This document shows positions 9,254 through 21,384 of a stretch of DNA of 64,000 bases, one piece after another. Numbering within the stretch: position 1 is the stretch's first letter; each line of letters begins with the position of its first letter. Made by a program: the position numbers and the translations under genes. This stretch comes from Phycisphaerae bacterium RAS2 (lineage in GTDB: Bacteria > Planctomycetota > Phycisphaerae > UBA1845 > UTPLA1). The notes below the pieces were generated by a model. That model was not told where the DNA came from and ran no database searches. It worked only from the letters and a program-made list of their open reading frames with translations. Location of the stretch: positions 1,798,001-1,862,000 of the forward strand of contig CP036352.1 of assembly GCA_007753915.1 (NCBI GenBank), read 5' to 3'.

Positions 9254-11164
9254 ATGTGCGGCATTTTGGGCGTGGTGACATTTCGAGGAGCGCATCCCAG
9301 CGAGCAATCGTTTGATTGCGCGCTGGGGCTGCTGGATCATCGTGGTCCGGATGATCGCGGCGCGCTCCATGATTCGCTGCCATCGGGCGGTCGCATTTCG
9401 CTCGGCCAGACGCGTTTAAGCATCCTCGACTTGTCGCCGGCGGGCCATCAGCCGATGGTCAGCGAGCGGACCGGCACGGCCATCGTCTTCAACGGGGAGG
9501 CGTACAATTTCCGGGAAGTGCGCGCAGGCCTGCAAGCCGCCGGCGTGTCGTTTCACAGCGAGTGCGACACGGAGGTGCTGCTCGCCGCGTACGACCAGCG
9601 GCAGGATGATTTCATCGAGTCATTTCGCGGGATGTTCGCGATCGGGCTTTGGGATCGCGCGCGAAACCGCCTGCTGCTCGTTCGTGACCGGCTGGGCATC
9701 AAGCCGCTCTACTACTATTGGGACGGTCGAACGCTTGCATTCGCTTCGGAGTTGACGGCCATCGCGGCGCTGCCGGGTCTTCAGCTTGACGTATGTCAGG
9801 ATGCGATGCGGCAGTATCTTTGGCGTGGTTTCATTCCGTTTCCCTTGTCTATTTACAAGCAGATCCGGAAATTGCCGGCGGGATATCGGTTGAGTATCAA
9901 TCTCGCGGACCCGCGGCCGGAAGCGGCTCCTTACTGGGATGCTCTGGACTATTATTCGTCTCCGAAGTCGTATGCCGGCCCGATCGAGGCCGTGGATGCG
10001 ATTGAAGAGGTGTTGAGCGAGGCCGTTCGGCTGCGTCTCATCAGCGATGTGCCGCTGGGGGCCTTTTTGAGCGGAGGCATCGACTCGTCGCTCGTCGTCG
10101 CACTAATGCGAAAGGTGCATTCGGGTACCGTTCGAACATTTTCGATCGGCTTTGATGAAGACCGCTGGAACGAAGCGCCGGCGGCCAAACGCATCGCCGA
10201 ACACCTAGGCACGCAGCACGAAGAAATGTACATTTCGCGCGAGAATCTGCTCGAGCAGGTTCCGTGCGTCAGCCGGCACTATGACGAACCCTTTGCGGAC
10301 TCGTCCGCCATTCCGACCCTGGCGTTGGCGAAACTGACGCGGCGTCACGTAACGGTGGCGTTGTCCGGCGATGGCGGGGATGAGTTGTTCTGGGGATACG
10401 ACCAGTACTCGGCGAAGTCGAACGCTATTTTTCCATGGGTGCAGTGGATTCCCGGTGCAGTGCGAAAGTCAATCGGCGCCGGTCTCCGTGCTTTTCGCGG
10501 AAGCTCCCTGGAACGGTGGGGACACCTGATTGCCTTCGACGACTTCGCCCAGTTTTATGCCCGAACCGACCATTGGCATCCCTGGACGTTTGCCGGGCTG
10601 CACCGTGCAACTGTCAGCATGCATCGGCAGTTGGAGATTGGACGGGAAGTCGCTGCTCGACTCGGTGATCAGGATCGAGATCGCCACATGAGCGCAGCGG
10701 ACCTCAAGAGCTATCTCGTCGATGACATTCTCACGAAGGTCGATCGTGCGACGATGGCGGTCGCGTTGGAGGCGCGAGTCCCGATCCTGGACCACAAAGT
10801 CGTTGAACTGGCTGCAGGGATTCCATATTCAATCAAGAAACATGGAAACGAAAAAAAACACCTGCTCAAGGCGCTGCTCGCGCGACATGTGCCTCGACCG
10901 CTCTGGGATCGACCCAAGATGGGCTTTGGTGTTCCGTTGGTTCATTACTTCCGCGGACCGCTTCGGGATTGGGCACGCGATGAATTGTTCAGTCATGACC
11001 ATTCTCTTTCGGAATGGCTGAACATGAACGTCGTGCAACAGGTTTATGACGAACACGTGAGTGGGCGGCGAGATTGCGCGAGCTTGCTCTGGGCGTGTCT
11101 GCAGCTAGCTGGTTGGGATCGGCGGATGCGCGGAATTCGCCAGGAGGCGACATTGACATGTTAA
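9254..11164 (+). CDS. asnB: Asparagine synthase-type amidotransferase, copy 1
   Basis: 636 residues with the full two-domain layout of glutamine-hydrolysing asparagine synthases. The N-terminal Cys2 nucleophile (MCGILGVV) opens the class II glutaminase domain, with LDHRGPDD and VFNGEAYNF. The C-terminal ATP-pyrophosphatase domain has its PPi loop LSGGIDSS at 272-279 and SGDGGDELFWGYD. All key residues are present, so it should be active. In exopolysaccharide loci such enzymes are thought to amidate a sugar acid or a precursor rather than make free asparagine. That is inference from context. GGGAG about 10 nt before the ATG supports the start. It is one of three divergent copies in this operon. 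Confidence 0.9.
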   Translation: MCGILGVVTFRGAHPSEQSFDCALGLLDHRGPDDRGALHDSLPSGGRISLGQTRLSILDLSPAGHQPMVSERTGTAIVFNGEAYNFREVRAGLQAAGVSFHSECDTEVLLAAYDQRQDDFIESFRGMFAIGLWDRARNRLLLVRDRLGIKPLYYYWDGRTLAFASELTAIAALPGLQLDVCQDAMRQYLWRGFIPFPLSIYKQIRKLPAGYRLSINLADPRPEAAPYWDALDYYSSPKSYAGPIEAVDAIEEVLSEAVRLRLISDVPLGAFLSGGIDSSLVVALMRKVHSGTVRTFSIGFDEDRWNEAPAAKRIAEHLGTQHEEMYISRENLLEQVPCVSRHYDEPFADSSAIPTLALAKLTRRHVTVALSGDGGDELFWGYDQYSAKSNAIFPWVQWIPGAVRKSIGAGLRAFRGSSLERWGHLIAFDDFAQFYARTDHWHPWTFAGLHRATVSMHRQLEIGREVAARLGDQDRDRHMSAADLKSYLVDDILTKVDRATMAVALEARVPILDHKVVELAAGIPYSIKKHGNEKKHLLKALLARHVPRPLWDRPKMGFGVPLVHYFRGPLRDWARDELFSHDHSLSEWLNMNVVQQVYDEHVSGRRDCASLLWACLQLAGWDRRMRGIRQEATLTC

Positions 11165-15186: not shown

Positions 15187-16344
15187 ATGAAAGTGGTCAT
15201 CCTTGTCGACTCGCTCATTCGGGGCGGCGCCGAACGCCAGGCCCTCCTGACGCTTCGTGAACTTGTGCGGCGCGGGGTCGATGCCCGGCTCATTCGGTAT
15301 TATGAAACGCCGGATGGATACGACTGGCCCGCTGAACTGAATTCACGCATCGTTCTTTTGGAGAAAAAGCGGCGAACGCTGCGCTTTGTGTGGCGGCTCC
15401 ATCGCTATCTCCGGCGCGAGCGGGTTGACGTCGTGCATGGTTTCAAGGACGTGCCAGGTATCTATGCCTGCGTCTGCGGCTGGATGGCCGGCGTGCCGGT
15501 GCGAATCATCGGCCATCGGTCGCTGTCTCTGCCCACCGGGCTGCTTCGAAAGGCGTACCGACTCATGCGGTTCTTCGCGACGGCCTGGATCGGAAACGCG
15601 CAGGCTGTAACGGATGTCTTGAACAGCGAACTGGACGTGCCGGCCAGCCGGTTGTGTGTCGTGCTCAACGGAATCGAAACGGACCGCTTTCGGATCAGCC
15701 TTGACCGCAAAACGGCTCGGGAGCGCTTGCAGATCGCTCCGGGCGCCGACGTCGTGACGATGGTCGCCGTGATGCGGGAGGGGAAGAACCATCGCATGTT
15801 TGTTCGGATGGCGGCTCGCGTGCGGGAACGGCGCCCGGACACGGTTTTTCTCCTTGTGGGGGATTCTGACCCGCTTGAACCGAATTGCCTCGAGGACGTA
15901 CAGAGGGAAGTGCAGCGCGCGGGGCTGACGGACTCGGTTCGGTTTCTTGGAATGCGGGCGGATGTGCCGGAGATTCTCCAAGCGACCGACGTCGCGGTGC
16001 TGACCACGCGGTTTGAGGGTATGTCCAACGCGCTGCTGGAAGCAATGTCGGCGGGTGTCAGCATTGTGACAACCGATTACGTCGGCGCGCGCGAGCTGGT
16101 TCAGGACGGCATCGAGGGATTCCTCGTACCTTTGGACGATGCCGAGGCCATGGCCGAGCGCGTTTCGCAACTGCTGGCAGATCCAGAGATGCGCACCCGT
16201 ATGGGGCAGGCGGGCGTGGAGCGGATCGATCGTCAGTTCAGTATGCAAGCCATGGGGGACCGGTTGGTTGACGTGTATTCCGCATTCCTGGCCGGACGGG
16301 GTGACATTCCGCAAGAAGCGTCCGGCGTCAGCTCGGCCCGATGA
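15187..16344 (+). CDS. Family 4 glycosyltransferase
   Basis: 385 residues, GT-B. The N-terminus VVILVDSLIRGGAERQ carries the GGAE loop typical of GT4. The donor domain includes VAVMREGKNHRMFVRMA, VRFLGMRADVPEIL and TTRFEGMSNALLEAMSAG with the E-x7-E type acidic pair. It transfers one sugar to the growing lipid-linked chain. The TGA at 16342-16344 is in the same reading frame as the next amidotransferase gene, whose coding sequence opens only 36 nt later without another stop between. Confidence 0.85.
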   Translation: MKVVILVDSLIRGGAERQALLTLRELVRRGVDARLIRYYETPDGYDWPAELNSRIVLLEKKRRTLRFVWRLHRYLRRERVDVVHGFKDVPGIYACVCGWMAGVPVRIIGHRSLSLPTGLLRKAYRLMRFFATAWIGNAQAVTDVLNSELDVPASRLCVVLNGIETDRFRISLDRKTARERLQIAPGADVVTMVAVMREGKNHRMFVRMAARVRERRPDTVFLLVGDSDPLEPNCLEDVQREVQRAGLTDSVRFLGMRADVPEILQATDVAVLTTRFEGMSNALLEAMSAGVSIVTTDYVGARELVQDGIEGFLVPLDDAEAMAERVSQLLADPEMRTRMGQAGVERIDRQFSMQAMGDRLVDVYSAFLAGRGDIPQEASGVSSAR

Positions 16345-16380
16345 GCCATCCCCATCGCATTAAATTCCGGGAGACCTGCC

Positions 16381-18297
16381 ATTTGCGGCATCTGCGGCAT
16401 TGTTGATTTCGCATCGCCCGTCGCGCAGGCGGACGTCGAGCGGATGGCGGTCTCGATCCGCCATCGTGGACCGGACGACTGCGGCGTTTACGCGAGCGGG
16501 CCGGTTGGGCTGGGGCACGCGCGGTTGAGCATCATCGATTTGTCACCCACCGGGCGACAGCCGATGTCGACACAGGATGGTATGTACACGATTGTATTCA
16601 ATGGCGAGGTGTACAATTTCCCGTCGTTGCGACGCCTGCTGGAGGAGCGAGGCATTGCGTTTCGCAGTACGTCGGACACCGAAGTCGTCTTGCACGCCTT
16701 CGCCCAATGGGGGGTGGACGCCTTTGCCCGGTTCAATGGGATGTTCGCACTGGCGATCTGGGATGCCGCGGCCCGGCGACTGACCCTGGCGCGAGATCGA
16801 TTCGGCATCAAGCCCTTGTATTTGCACGAATCGGATCGTTCGCTGGTGTTCGGCTCGGAAATGAAAGCACTGCTTTGCAGCGGCCGTGTCGACCGGCGGA
16901 TGAACTGGGCGGCGCTTCATGAGTACCTCTATTATGGCTATCCCATTGGCGCGAACACGTTTTACCGGGGTATTCGTGAATTGTCGCCCGGATCGTATGC
17001 GACGTTTGACGCCTCCGGATTGAAAGAGACACGATATTGGCACATCGAGCAAACACCGACCGTGTCCGATGGATTGCAGCCGGCCGCCCGGCGTGTGGCG
17101 GACTTGCTCGACAAGGCGGTGCAGTCCCACCTTATCAGCGACGTGCCGGTGGGCGTGTTCCTTAGCGGAGGCGTCGATTCTTCCGCCATCACGGCGCTGG
17201 CCAGTCGCCATTACGCCGGTCGGCTCAAGACCTATTCCGCGAGTTTTGACTTCGACAGGGGGGTGGATGAGCGACCCAAGGCGCGCCTCATCGCCCAGCG
17301 CTTCGGCACCGAGCACCACGAAGTTCGCGTGGAAGGGCGGAGGATGCCCGACGTGATCGAGGCGCTCGTGCGGTGCCACGATGAACCATTTGGCGACGCG
17401 GCGGACATCCCGTTGTACCTCCTGTGTGAGCAGCTTCGCGGCAGCGTGAAGGTAATCCTCCAGGGCGACGGCGGCGATGAGATCTTCGCGGGGTATCGCC
17501 GATACAACGTTCTCTCGTTTAACCCGCTGTGGCAGGTGATGGCCCGATTTCGCGGATTGTTGTCCACGATGCCGCGCGGGCCGTTGCAACAGCGCGCGAC
17601 TCGCTTCTTTCGGGCAATTGGCCATGAAGATCCCGCGCTGCAGATGGCGCTGTATCTGACGCAGGAGGATTTTCTCAATCCGCCGACACGTCTGTTTGGC
17701 ACAGACGCCAGGCAACAACTCGCCGCGCACGATCCTTTTGCCGCCTACCATGCCGCATACTCCCGGCTTCGGGATTTCGATACCGTTCAGCGCGCGCTGT
17801 ACACGGACTGCCTCATTCTTTTGCCGGACATGTTTCTCGAGAAGGTGGACAAGTCCACCATGGCCCACGGCATCGAAGTGCGCGTGCCGTTCCTGGATAC
17901 CGACTTGACCGACTACGCGTTGGGGTTGCCGTCAGGAATCAAGGTCAAATACGGTCAGAAGAAGCGAATCCTGCGGATGGCCTTGCGCGGCATCGTTCCC
18001 GATGAAATACTCGATGCTCCCAAGGAAGGATTCGGCGTGCCTTATCAATACTGGCTTCGCGAGCCTCTGGCGGAATACCTCCGGTCTGTATTGCTGGATG
18101 ATTCGGTTCAGCAATGGGGCCTATTCGATCGTGCCGCGTTGGAAGGCGCGATCCATGAGCATACCTCGGGTCAGCGCAACCACGGCTTCTTGCTCTGGAA
18201 GCTTTTGAATCTCGGATTGTGGTATCGGATGTATCTGCAGGGCGGCGCAACGCCTGATGTGCCGCATTCAAAGGTTGAAAGCGCCAGCCGCGCATGA
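16381..18297 (+). CDS. asnB: Asparagine synthase-type amidotransferase, copy 2, with an ATT start codon
   Basis: 638 residues if translation begins at ATT 16381. The bases read ATT-TGC-GGC-ATC-TGC-GGC, so the start codon directly precedes the Cys that must be the N-terminal nucleophile of the class II glutaminase domain. GGGAG at 16369-16373 sits 7 nt upstream, an ideal ribosome-binding distance. The first ATG in frame is at 16444 and would remove 21 residues including the Cys. The rest is intact: IRHRGPDD, VFNGEVYNF, the PPi loop LSGGVDSS (261-268) and QGDGGDEIFAGYRRY. Either AUU initiation is used, as known for infC, or this is an ATG-to-ATT change that lowers expression, or a sequence error. 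Its TGA overlaps the next ATG. Confidence 0.85.
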   Translation: MCGICGIVDFASPVAQADVERMAVSIRHRGPDDCGVYASGPVGLGHARLSIIDLSPTGRQPMSTQDGMYTIVFNGEVYNFPSLRRLLEERGIAFRSTSDTEVVLHAFAQWGVDAFARFNGMFALAIWDAAARRLTLARDRFGIKPLYLHESDRSLVFGSEMKALLCSGRVDRRMNWAALHEYLYYGYPIGANTFYRGIRELSPGSYATFDASGLKETRYWHIEQTPTVSDGLQPAARRVADLLDKAVQSHLISDVPVGVFLSGGVDSSAITALASRHYAGRLKTYSASFDFDRGVDERPKARLIAQRFGTEHHEVRVEGRRMPDVIEALVRCHDEPFGDAADIPLYLLCEQLRGSVKVILQGDGGDEIFAGYRRYNVLSFNPLWQVMARFRGLLSTMPRGPLQQRATRFFRAIGHEDPALQMALYLTQEDFLNPPTRLFGTDARQQLAAHDPFAAYHAAYSRLRDFDTVQRALYTDCLILLPDMFLEKVDKSTMAHGIEVRVPFLDTDLTDYALGLPSGIKVKYGQKKRILRMALRGIVPDEILDAPKEGFGVPYQYWLREPLAEYLRSVLLDDSVQQWGLFDRAALEGAIHEHTSGQRNHGFLLWKLLNLGLWYRMYLQGGATPDVPHSKVESASRA

Positions 18298-19439
18298 GCG
18301 AAAACTCACCGCCGCCCATATCGCCTGTCCGCGTGATGATCATCGGCACGCTGCCTCCTCCGGTGGGCGGTGCCGGGGTGTCGCTGCAACATCTGGTGAA
18401 TCTGCTCGGCGAGCGTGGCGATGTCCGCGTGACGATGGTGAACACCTCCGGCGTTCGCGGTCGGCTCGTGACGGCGCCCTTTCGCTTCGCGCGGATCGTC
18501 TGGCGCATGATGTGGGGCGCGCTTAGGGTCGACGTCGTCAGCCTGCAGTCCATGCCAAGTGGCATCCCGTTCATCGGCCCGTTTGCCTGGCTGGCCGCAC
18601 GGCTGGGAGGCCGACCATTCATGATTCGAATGTTCGGCGGCGAGAGTTTCCTCGAAGGGAGCGGGTTTGGAGCCGCGATCGTCCGCTGGATCGTACGCAA
18701 GAGCGATCTTTACCTGGCGCAAACAAAGCAACTTGTAGCCGAGGCACAGGCCGCCGGGCTGCGGCGCGTCGAATGGTATGCGACCAGTCGGCCGATGTCT
18801 GACGCGGCTCCCGCGGCTGACTTACAAAAGCCATGTCGCAAGTTCGTGTTTCTCGGTCACGTCAAACCCCTCAAGGGGATTGAAGAACTCATCGCGGCTG
18901 GTGAGCGCCTGGGAGAGGGTGTTTCAATCGACGTGTACGGTCCGTTGATGGACGGCATGACGGAGGCACGCTTTGCGGGGCTGACGCGTGTGCGGTATCG
19001 CGGCACGATACCCGCCGGGACCGGCGTTCGAGTTTTGCAGGATTATGACGCGATGGTCTTCCCGACCTACTGGCCGGGTGAGGGGTATCCGGGCGTCGTC
19101 ATCGAGGCGTTCGCGGCGGGGCTGCCGGTGATCGCGACGCGCTGGCGGAACATCCCGGAGATTATTGATGAGACGTGCGGCATGTTGATCGAGCCGCGCA
19201 ATGTGGACGCGCTGTTCGACGCATTGCAGAAACTTGTGCAAGACGATGGGCTTTTCCATCGCCTGCGGCACGGCGCGCTGCGGCAACGCGATTTCTTTGA
19301 CTCGCGGCGGTGGGTGGAGAAGTTCGTGGTCTGGTGTCGAGAGCTGGTGAACCCGTCAAGTCGCGCGGGTGAGGCACTCCAATCGACTGACACGCGGGCG
19401 GCCGTGGCTCACGATCGCACATCAGAGAGACGGAACTAG
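18294..19439 (+). CDS. Family 4 glycosyltransferase
   Basis: 381 residues, GT-B. The opening VMIIGTLPPPVGGAGVSLQHL carries the GGAG loop seen in a GT4 subset, followed by VDVVSLQS. The donor half contains FVFLGHVKPLKGIEELI and PTYWPGEGYPGVVIEAFAAGLP with its acidic pair. The start overlaps the upstream stop (ATGA), so it is translationally coupled to the ATT-start amidotransferase. If that gene is poorly initiated, expression of this enzyme could drop too. Substrate unknown. Confidence 0.85.
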   Translation: MSENSPPPISPVRVMIIGTLPPPVGGAGVSLQHLVNLLGERGDVRVTMVNTSGVRGRLVTAPFRFARIVWRMMWGALRVDVVSLQSMPSGIPFIGPFAWLAARLGGRPFMIRMFGGESFLEGSGFGAAIVRWIVRKSDLYLAQTKQLVAEAQAAGLRRVEWYATSRPMSDAAPAADLQKPCRKFVFLGHVKPLKGIEELIAAGERLGEGVSIDVYGPLMDGMTEARFAGLTRVRYRGTIPAGTGVRVLQDYDAMVFPTYWPGEGYPGVVIEAFAAGLPVIATRWRNIPEIIDETCGMLIEPRNVDALFDALQKLVQDDGLFHRLRHGALRQRDFFDSRRWVEKFVVWCRELVNPSSRAGEALQSTDTRAAVAHDRTSERRN

Positions 19440-19440
19440 T

Positions 19441-21384
19441 ATGTGCGGCATTTGCGGATATGTCGGCGATCATCGCCCCGAGCTGTTGGAGCCGATGTGC
19501 TTGGCCATGCGCCATCGAGGACCGGATGACTCCGGCGTGTGGCACGATGCCGCGGCGCGCGTGGGGCTGGGTCATCGTCGGCTTTCGATCATTGACCTAA
19601 GCCCGGCGGGGCATCAGCCGATGTCGACGCCGGATGGTCGAATTCAGATCGTCTTTAACGGCGAGATTTACAATTTTGAGGAGCATCGAGAGCGGCTGAA
19701 GGCGAAGGGACGGACGTTTCGCGGACACAGCGACACCGAAGTGCTGCTCTACCTGTATGAAGAGATGGGTGCGGACTTTCTTCACGCGCTCAACGGTATC
19801 TTTGCGCTGGCGATCTGGGACGCCCGCGATCGGTCGCTGCTGCTGGCGCGCGATCATGCCGGCATCAAACCGCTCTACTACTGGCTCGATGGCGAGCGGT
19901 TGTTTTTCGCATCGGAGATCAAAGCGCTGCTGCGAATTCCGGGCGTGCCGCGCGAGATCAATCTTGACCGTCTGCCGGATTACCTCACGTTTCTGTGGGT
20001 GCCGGGGGAAGAGACGATGCTCAAGTCGGTTCGCAAGCTCGAGCCGGGCCACGCGATGCGATGGCGCGACGGGCGGGTGCAATCGTGGAAATGGTTCACA
20101 CTGACCTACGAGCCGGATGAAGGGCCGAGCGAATCCGAGTGGATCGAGCGTGTGCATGACACCTTCATGGCAGCCACGCGGCGGCAGATGATGTCCGATG
20201 TACCGCTGGGCGCGTTGCTTTCAGGTGGGACGGACTCGACCGCCATCGCGGCGTGCATGAGGCATTCGTTTCCCGACCGCGAAATTCGCTGCTACACGTT
20301 CGAGACACCGCCGGAAGACATGGCCCGCGATCAGTTCGAGGCCGATCACCCGTTCGCCGTGCGCGTGGCGAAGCACCTGAACATCACGCTGCGAAGCTGC
20401 CTGCTCCGGCCGAACGTCATCGAGTTGCTGCCCAAGATGGTCTATCACAACGACGAGCCGGACGCTGACCCGACGGTGTTTCCGTCGTACCTGCTCTCGA
20501 AAATGGCCCGCGACGACGGGACGACGGTGCTGCTGTCCGGCATGGGCGGTGACGAGATGTTCTTCGGCTATCGCAGCCACCAGGCGCTTCGGCGGCTGGA
20601 GCAATTCGGATGGATCCCGCGTTGGCTGCTGGCGCCGGCGCTGGCGTCGGCGTGCGGGGCGGCGTCGGCCGTGATGGGGGCGCAGAGCGCGTTGCCCCGG
20701 CGATTGCGAAAGTTTCGAAAGGCGCTACTGGGTGACGGCGTGGAGCGATTCGAAGCGCTTTCGGACTGGTCGAGCGCGGCGACGCGCGAGCGATTGTTCG
20801 GCCCCGCGCCGGCCACGGCAACTGCGAACGGCGGCGCGGGGCGGGGGCGCTCGGCGATTCTGAAGTATTACAATGAGTTCTCCGGCCGCGGGGAATTGAA
20901 CCGTCGCTCGCACATCCTGATTCAGACCTTCCTCGCGGCGCACAACTTCATGTACACGGATAAATCGAGCATGGCGACATCGGTGGAAGTGCGCGTGCCG
21001 TTCCTCGATGTGGAGTTGATGCGATTGTGCGCGCGCATCCCCGAGCGTCACAAGCTAAAAGGCATGACGACCAAGTACCTTCTCAAGGAGTCCATGGCGC
21101 GATACATCCCGCGCGACATTCTGTATCGCAGCAAGACCGGCTTCGGCCCGCCCCTAAGGAAGTGGATGGCGGAGGACTTCGGAGGCATCACCAACGACTT
21201 GCTGGGCGAGCGTGTCCTACGCCAGCGAGGATTGTTCGACCCGGCTGCCGTCGCAGCCGTCGTTCGTGAGAATGCAGCCAACACAGCCGATCATGCTTAC
21301 TTGTTGTTCGCGCTGCTCACTCTGGAAGTGTGGATGCAGACATTCATTGACCGCCCCGGCGAGGAAGCGACGCTGACTGCGTGA
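19441..21384 (+). CDS. asnB: Asparagine synthase-type amidotransferase, copy 3
   Basis: 647 residues from ATG 19441, the codon before the nucleophilic Cys2 (MCGICGYVG). The same frame is open upstream to 19369, but that would bury the Cys. The glutaminase domain has MRHRGPDD and VFNGEIYNF. The synthetase domain has the PPi loop LSGGTDST (260-267) and LSGMGGDEMFFGY, where Met replaces the more usual Asp of SGDGGDE, a variation that may affect the substrate. It is clearly divergent from the other two copies, so a recent tandem duplication is unlikely. Its TGA overlaps the GTG of the next gene. Confidence 0.9.
   Translation: MCGICGYVGDHRPELLEPMCLAMRHRGPDDSGVWHDAAARVGLGHRRLSIIDLSPAGHQPMSTPDGRIQIVFNGEIYNFEEHRERLKAKGRTFRGHSDTEVLLYLYEEMGADFLHALNGIFALAIWDARDRSLLLARDHAGIKPLYYWLDGERLFFASEIKALLRIPGVPREINLDRLPDYLTFLWVPGEETMLKSVRKLEPGHAMRWRDGRVQSWKWFTLTYEPDEGPSESEWIERVHDTFMAATRRQMMSDVPLGALLSGGTDSTAIAACMRHSFPDREIRCYTFETPPEDMARDQFEADHPFAVRVAKHLNITLRSCLLRPNVIELLPKMVYHNDEPDADPTVFPSYLLSKMARDDGTTVLLSGMGGDEMFFGYRSHQALRRLEQFGWIPRWLLAPALASACGAASAVMGAQSALPRRLRKFRKALLGDGVERFEALSDWSSAATRERLFGPAPATATANGGAGRGRSAILKYYNEFSGRGELNRRSHILIQTFLAAHNFMYTDKSSMATSVEVRVPFLDVELMRLCARIPERHKLKGMTTKYLLKESMARYIPRDILYRSKTGFGPPLRKWMAEDFGGITNDLLGERVLRQRGLFDPAAVAAVVRENAANTADHAYLLFALLTLEVWMQTFIDRPGEEATLTA

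Follow-up and report, generated by a model that had tools for sequence, protein, structure and literature searches.

The amidotransferase gene downstream of a glycosyltransferase gene in the window (the whole stretch of DNA analyzed here, 64,000 nucleotides from Phycisphaerae bacterium RAS2) raises the question of where its translation begins, as the codon directly ahead of the catalytic cysteine is ATT. The nucleophile must stay at residue 2, and translation from ATT is the only reading that keeps it there. Judging from the sequence comparisons described below, we are highly confident that the amidotransferase is translated from AUU.

The start region and the encoded enzyme

The amidotransferase frame opens at 16345, just past the TGA of the glycosyltransferase, ends at 18297, and translates from its first codon as A-I-P-I-A-L-N-S-G-R-P-A-I-C-G-I-C-G-I-V-D-F. 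No ATG, GTG or TTG occurs in frame between the preceding stop and the Cys codon of the window gene. A read-out of the window gave ATT followed immediately by TGC (Table 1) and agreed with the initial annotation, which had reported an ATT before the catalytic Cys with a well-spaced GGGAG. The 16S end of the window genome contains GGATCACCTCCTTT, so that GGAG represents a normal partial Shine-Dalgarno match. The annotation had also stated that the nearest in-frame ATG would cost the enzyme its nucleophile, and this codon was indeed found to lie downstream of Cys2. RNA folding around the start revealed nothing unusual. At window 16341-16406, a frame of 21 codons runs across the ATT, its ATG sharing bases with the stop of the glycosyltransferase gene (ATGA). 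Short open reading frames in the spacer were dropped as candidates, as the nearest relative has a different, 7-codon frame that ends in TGATT at its ATT, and the frames are not conserved.

The product of the ATT gene matched PF13537 (155 bits), PF13522 (153 bits) and PF00733 (329 bits), and passed TIGR01536 with 480 bits against a cut-off of 267. Its score for TIGR03108, the XrtA/PEP-CTERM system amidotransferase, was 510 bits, below the curated cut-off of 816.9, which places it outside that family. Alignment to 7ylz and 1ct9 showed that the glutamine-pocket motifs (RLS, NGE and SDTE, with R48, N74 and D99) and the PPi loop SGGVDS at 262 are present; with ATT as the start, the Cys directly follows the initiator residue. 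The domains, Cys2 and SGGVDS are common to this protein and the AsnB-type asparagine synthases and class II amidotransferases (PF13537 plus PF00733; TIGR01536), nearly all of which, unlike the window gene, have NTG at the Cys. The Cys codon is preceded by ATG in both sister genes in the window (9254 and 19441), as had been noted, and also in two further asparagine-synthase-like genes elsewhere in the window genome. The neighbors encode glycosyltransferases, two more amidotransferases, a heparinase-like protein, an acetyltransferase and an ATP-grasp protein, a set suggestive of a polysaccharide-type cluster.

Table 1. Features of the amidotransferase locus (window positions)
Feature	Position	Strand	Remarks
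Sister amidotransferase, ATG start	9254..11164	+	ATG before Cys
Family 4 glycosyltransferase, upstream	15187..16344	+	36 nt from its TGA to the ATT; syntenic at each of the seven orthologous loci
Shine-Dalgarno-like GGGAG, 7 nt from ATT	16369..16373	+	GGAG-7nt-ATT retained in G001
Putative initiation codon ATT of the amidotransferase gene	16381..16383	+	Directly before Cys; also ATT in G001 and G009
Asparagine-synthase-like class II amidotransferase, 638 aa, glutaminase and Asn_synthase domains	16381..18297	+	PF13537, PF13522, PF00733; TIGR01536
TGC, catalytic Cys codon, residue 2	16384..16386	+	Aligns with Cys2 of the solved hydroxyamidotransferase 7ylz
First canonical in-frame ATG, internal Met22	16444..16446	+	Start here would lose the nucleophile
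Glycosyltransferase, downstream	18294..19439	+	Start and ATT-gene stop codons overlap (ATGA)
Sister amidotransferase, ATG before Cys	19441..21384	+	ORF open from GTG 19369

Conservation of ATT among orthologues

Orthologues were present in 7 of the 17 genomes of the family sample, which includes the window genome (G000); the next matches dropped to about 40% identity. The initial annotation had proposed a comparison with close relatives for the codon at this site, and this comparison revealed ATT at the Cys not only in the window genome but also in its nearest relative (G001, same genus, 87% identical) and in a member of another genus of the family (G009, 62%). The remaining four orthologues carry a canonical codon at exactly the same position, ATG in G008, G015 and G002 and GTG in G013. 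All seven lie directly behind an orthologue of the same glycosyltransferase and have further neighbors in common. ATC and ATA also came up in four further genomes of the family, but these hits proved to be either fortuitous or due to an unrelated carbamoyl-phosphate-synthase-like protein, and a single-protein search of the genome contigs returned no match.

The element CGGGAG-7nt-ATT is retained in G000 and G001, whose spacers have otherwise diverged; in G009 the upstream element is GGA only, at 9 nt. No canonical in-frame start was found in the open stretch upstream of the Cys in G000 (12 codons) or G001 (8 codons), and the sole one in G009 sits 31 codons upstream, inside the preceding gene. 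Between G000 and G001, codons 2-21 gave a dN of 0.07 and a dS of 0.53, as compared with 0.08 and 0.91 for the whole gene; in the ten codons that follow the start, all differences between G000 and G009 are silent and at third positions. As judged by these substitutions, codons 2-21 are under purifying selection. The locus thus shows the features by which a near-cognate start is recognized, namely the absence of a plausible canonical start and the conservation of the codon, with a coding signal from there on.

A concatenated tree of the cluster genes and infC split G000, G001 and G009 from the other four genomes (93.5/91), which fits one origin of ATT. In a gene tree with outgroups, G009 fell among the other orthologues with low support. 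A single gain, a gain followed by reversal, or two gains of ATT are possible histories on these trees.

Near-cognate codons in other amidotransferases and in infC

When some 85,000 species genomes were scanned for the CGI-x-G...HRGPD signature with ATT in front of it, 13 sites matched. Six were MCG-ICGIAG/ICGICG proteins whose ordinary ATG lies three codons upstream, and another was rejected as out of frame. The six credible matches came from Gemmatimonadales, Bacillota, Caulobacteraceae, Chitinophaga (a match cut by the sequence end) and Sphingomonas (two matches, which have an ATG in frame 14 and 20 codons farther upstream). The first three of these (L072, L075 and L079, respectively) are isolated full-length genes with ATT before the Cys and no canonical in-frame start nearby. 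In 397 genomes of the class, HTH codons (ATT, ATC, ATA and others) preceded the signature three times, always in orthologues of the window gene, whereas NTG was counted before it at 62 sites in 16 genomes of the family and at 145 sites in 82 further genomes of the order. The restriction of HTH to three orthologues, against such frequent NTG, indicates that the ATT is not due to chance.

The two Sphingomonas amidotransferases are 59% identical to each other, and a polysaccharide flippase-like gene adjoins one of them (L080). Of 151 Sphingomonas genomes scanned, 19 had ATC or ATT before the Cys, and the 26 Sphingomonas orthologues of this related amidotransferase (L130-L155) carried ATC in 23 cases, ATT in two and ATG in one (G499). 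Several have no canonical in-frame start at all, the frame in G422 being closed 5 codons upstream, and GGAG or better was found 6-9 nt upstream in many of them. In the tree, the ATG gene of G499 was basal and the ATC/ATT genes formed one group (93/89), while the window's family formed a separate clade with its own ATG and GTG members. The near-cognate starts of the two groups therefore most likely arose independently. No match was found in any other genome of a sample of 385 alphaproteobacteria. The Sphingomonas sequences show that the window gene, with its predicted AUU start, is not unique in having a conserved near-cognate start.

The AUU codon of infC is the classical start under IF3 control. 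In the window genome, an ATT occupies the start position of infC (L083, G000:C1:4093578-4093781, minus strand) and is preceded by an extended AGGTGATC Shine-Dalgarno sequence; most of the family (L085, L090 and others) shows the same arrangement, ATT also being found in G001 and G009, and G004 (L097) has ATC at this position. The infC of the window organism thus appears to start with ATT and would provide an internal precedent, so that the likeness to infC drawn in the initial annotation was apt. As in the window gene, a near-cognate start (AUU, AUC or AUA) is conserved across species in infC, but infC is subject to autoregulation by IF3 itself and has the extended AGGTGATC, whereas the amidotransferase has GGAG only and no known link to IF3.

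Outside infC, conserved near-cognate starts like that of the window gene have been described in Staphylococcus aureus for cvfC1 (AUU) and ccpN (AUA), which encode a small protein and a regulator behind extended Shine-Dalgarno sequences, in contrast to the metabolic enzyme and short GGAG of the window gene; AUU and AUA starts of conserved genes in this organism gave about 10% of the AUG yield in poor medium (PMC13009471). The AUU start of E. coli pcnB is, according to the account in PMC13009471, reported to limit translation (Binns and Masters 2002); as in the window gene, the AUU belongs to an enzyme, but an unrelated one, and the start was by that account proven by experiment, as opposed to the sequence evidence presented here. 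Our literature search, of incomplete coverage, returned no report of non-canonical starts in such amidotransferases, nor of the clade-wide start in Sphingomonas. On the grounds of its conserved, putative AUU codon, the amidotransferase is a further member of the small known class comprising infC, pcnB, cvfC1 and ccpN.

Interpretation of the ATT start

Among the alternatives, the one that survives best accepts ATT as the start and regards it as a nearly neutral relic, which arose once, still functions adequately and plays no part in regulation. The existence of ATG and GTG orthologues, the restriction of ATT to three genomes and the single base change that would yield ATG all speak in its favor. 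We nevertheless consider it rather unlikely, as ATT has persisted within the genus over a dS of about 0.9 and, at 62% protein identity, between genera, and an independent clade in Sphingomonas keeps ATC or ATT in 25 of 26 orthologues.

Three further explanations are very improbable. The initial annotation had suggested that a point mutation in the start codon silenced the gene, and ATT is generally a poor start; this is contradicted by two other genomes, in which the ATT precedes an intact frame of 620-640 codons, and by purifying selection on the whole gene, codons 2-21 included. There is likewise very little to be said for readthrough of the glycosyltransferase stop, or for an upstream start followed by cleavage of a propeptide to free the Cys, a maturation known from some PurF enzymes. 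The glycosyltransferase and amidotransferase genes share a frame in G000, where 36 nt separate them, and in G001, where the distance is 24 nt, but they lie 32 nt apart and in different frames in G009. The open stretches in G000 and G001 contain no canonical start, and the residues upstream of the Cys are not conserved. A start at ATG 16444, yielding a protein without the glutaminase nucleophile, is what programs restricted to ATG, GTG and TTG would presumably pick; however, purifying selection on codons 2-21 implies that this region is translated, which makes the downstream start untenable, and these codons keep CGICGIVDF, while all orthologues that have a canonical start codon carry it at the Cys. 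The least likely explanation is the sequencing or assembly error at base 16383 that had also been suggested, for although our data are assemblies and not reads, ATT is carried by three separate assemblies, with G001 and G009 contradicting an error.

We regard it as probable, from the pattern of conservation, that the AUU start has been kept as a weak and probably IF3-sensitive throttle on one enzyme of a polysaccharide operon. Initiator tRNA is able to read AUU as fMet, as it would at 16381, with the GGAG 7 nt upstream helping initiation, and ribosomes ending translation of the glycosyltransferase (stop 24-36 nt upstream) may aid the process through translational coupling. A Met before Cys is removed, and removal of the fMet would expose Cys2 as the N-terminal nucleophile. 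The weak codon would most likely hold the amidotransferase below its operon neighbors. IF3 discriminates against near-cognate starts such as AUU, and synthesis of the amidotransferase may be made dependent on IF3, as for infC. Since ATG and GTG orthologues exist, the weak start is not a requirement for such an enzyme.

To our knowledge, few bacterial genes outside infC have an AUU or AUC start. Gene finders that accept only ATG, GTG and TTG would truncate the enzyme of the window and remove its nucleophile. We tentatively propose that polysaccharide amidotransferases gained and kept AUU or AUC on at least two occasions, one in the window's family and one in Sphingomonas, as a selected throttle sensed through IF3. 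Because the Cys of class II amidotransferases marks the true start without proteomics, near-cognate starts can be counted from sequence; such counting gave two separate conserved cases, and selection on weak starts becomes directly testable. If the proposal is correct, the start fixed by the Cys would make this amidotransferase family a marker for hidden near-cognate starts in any genome.
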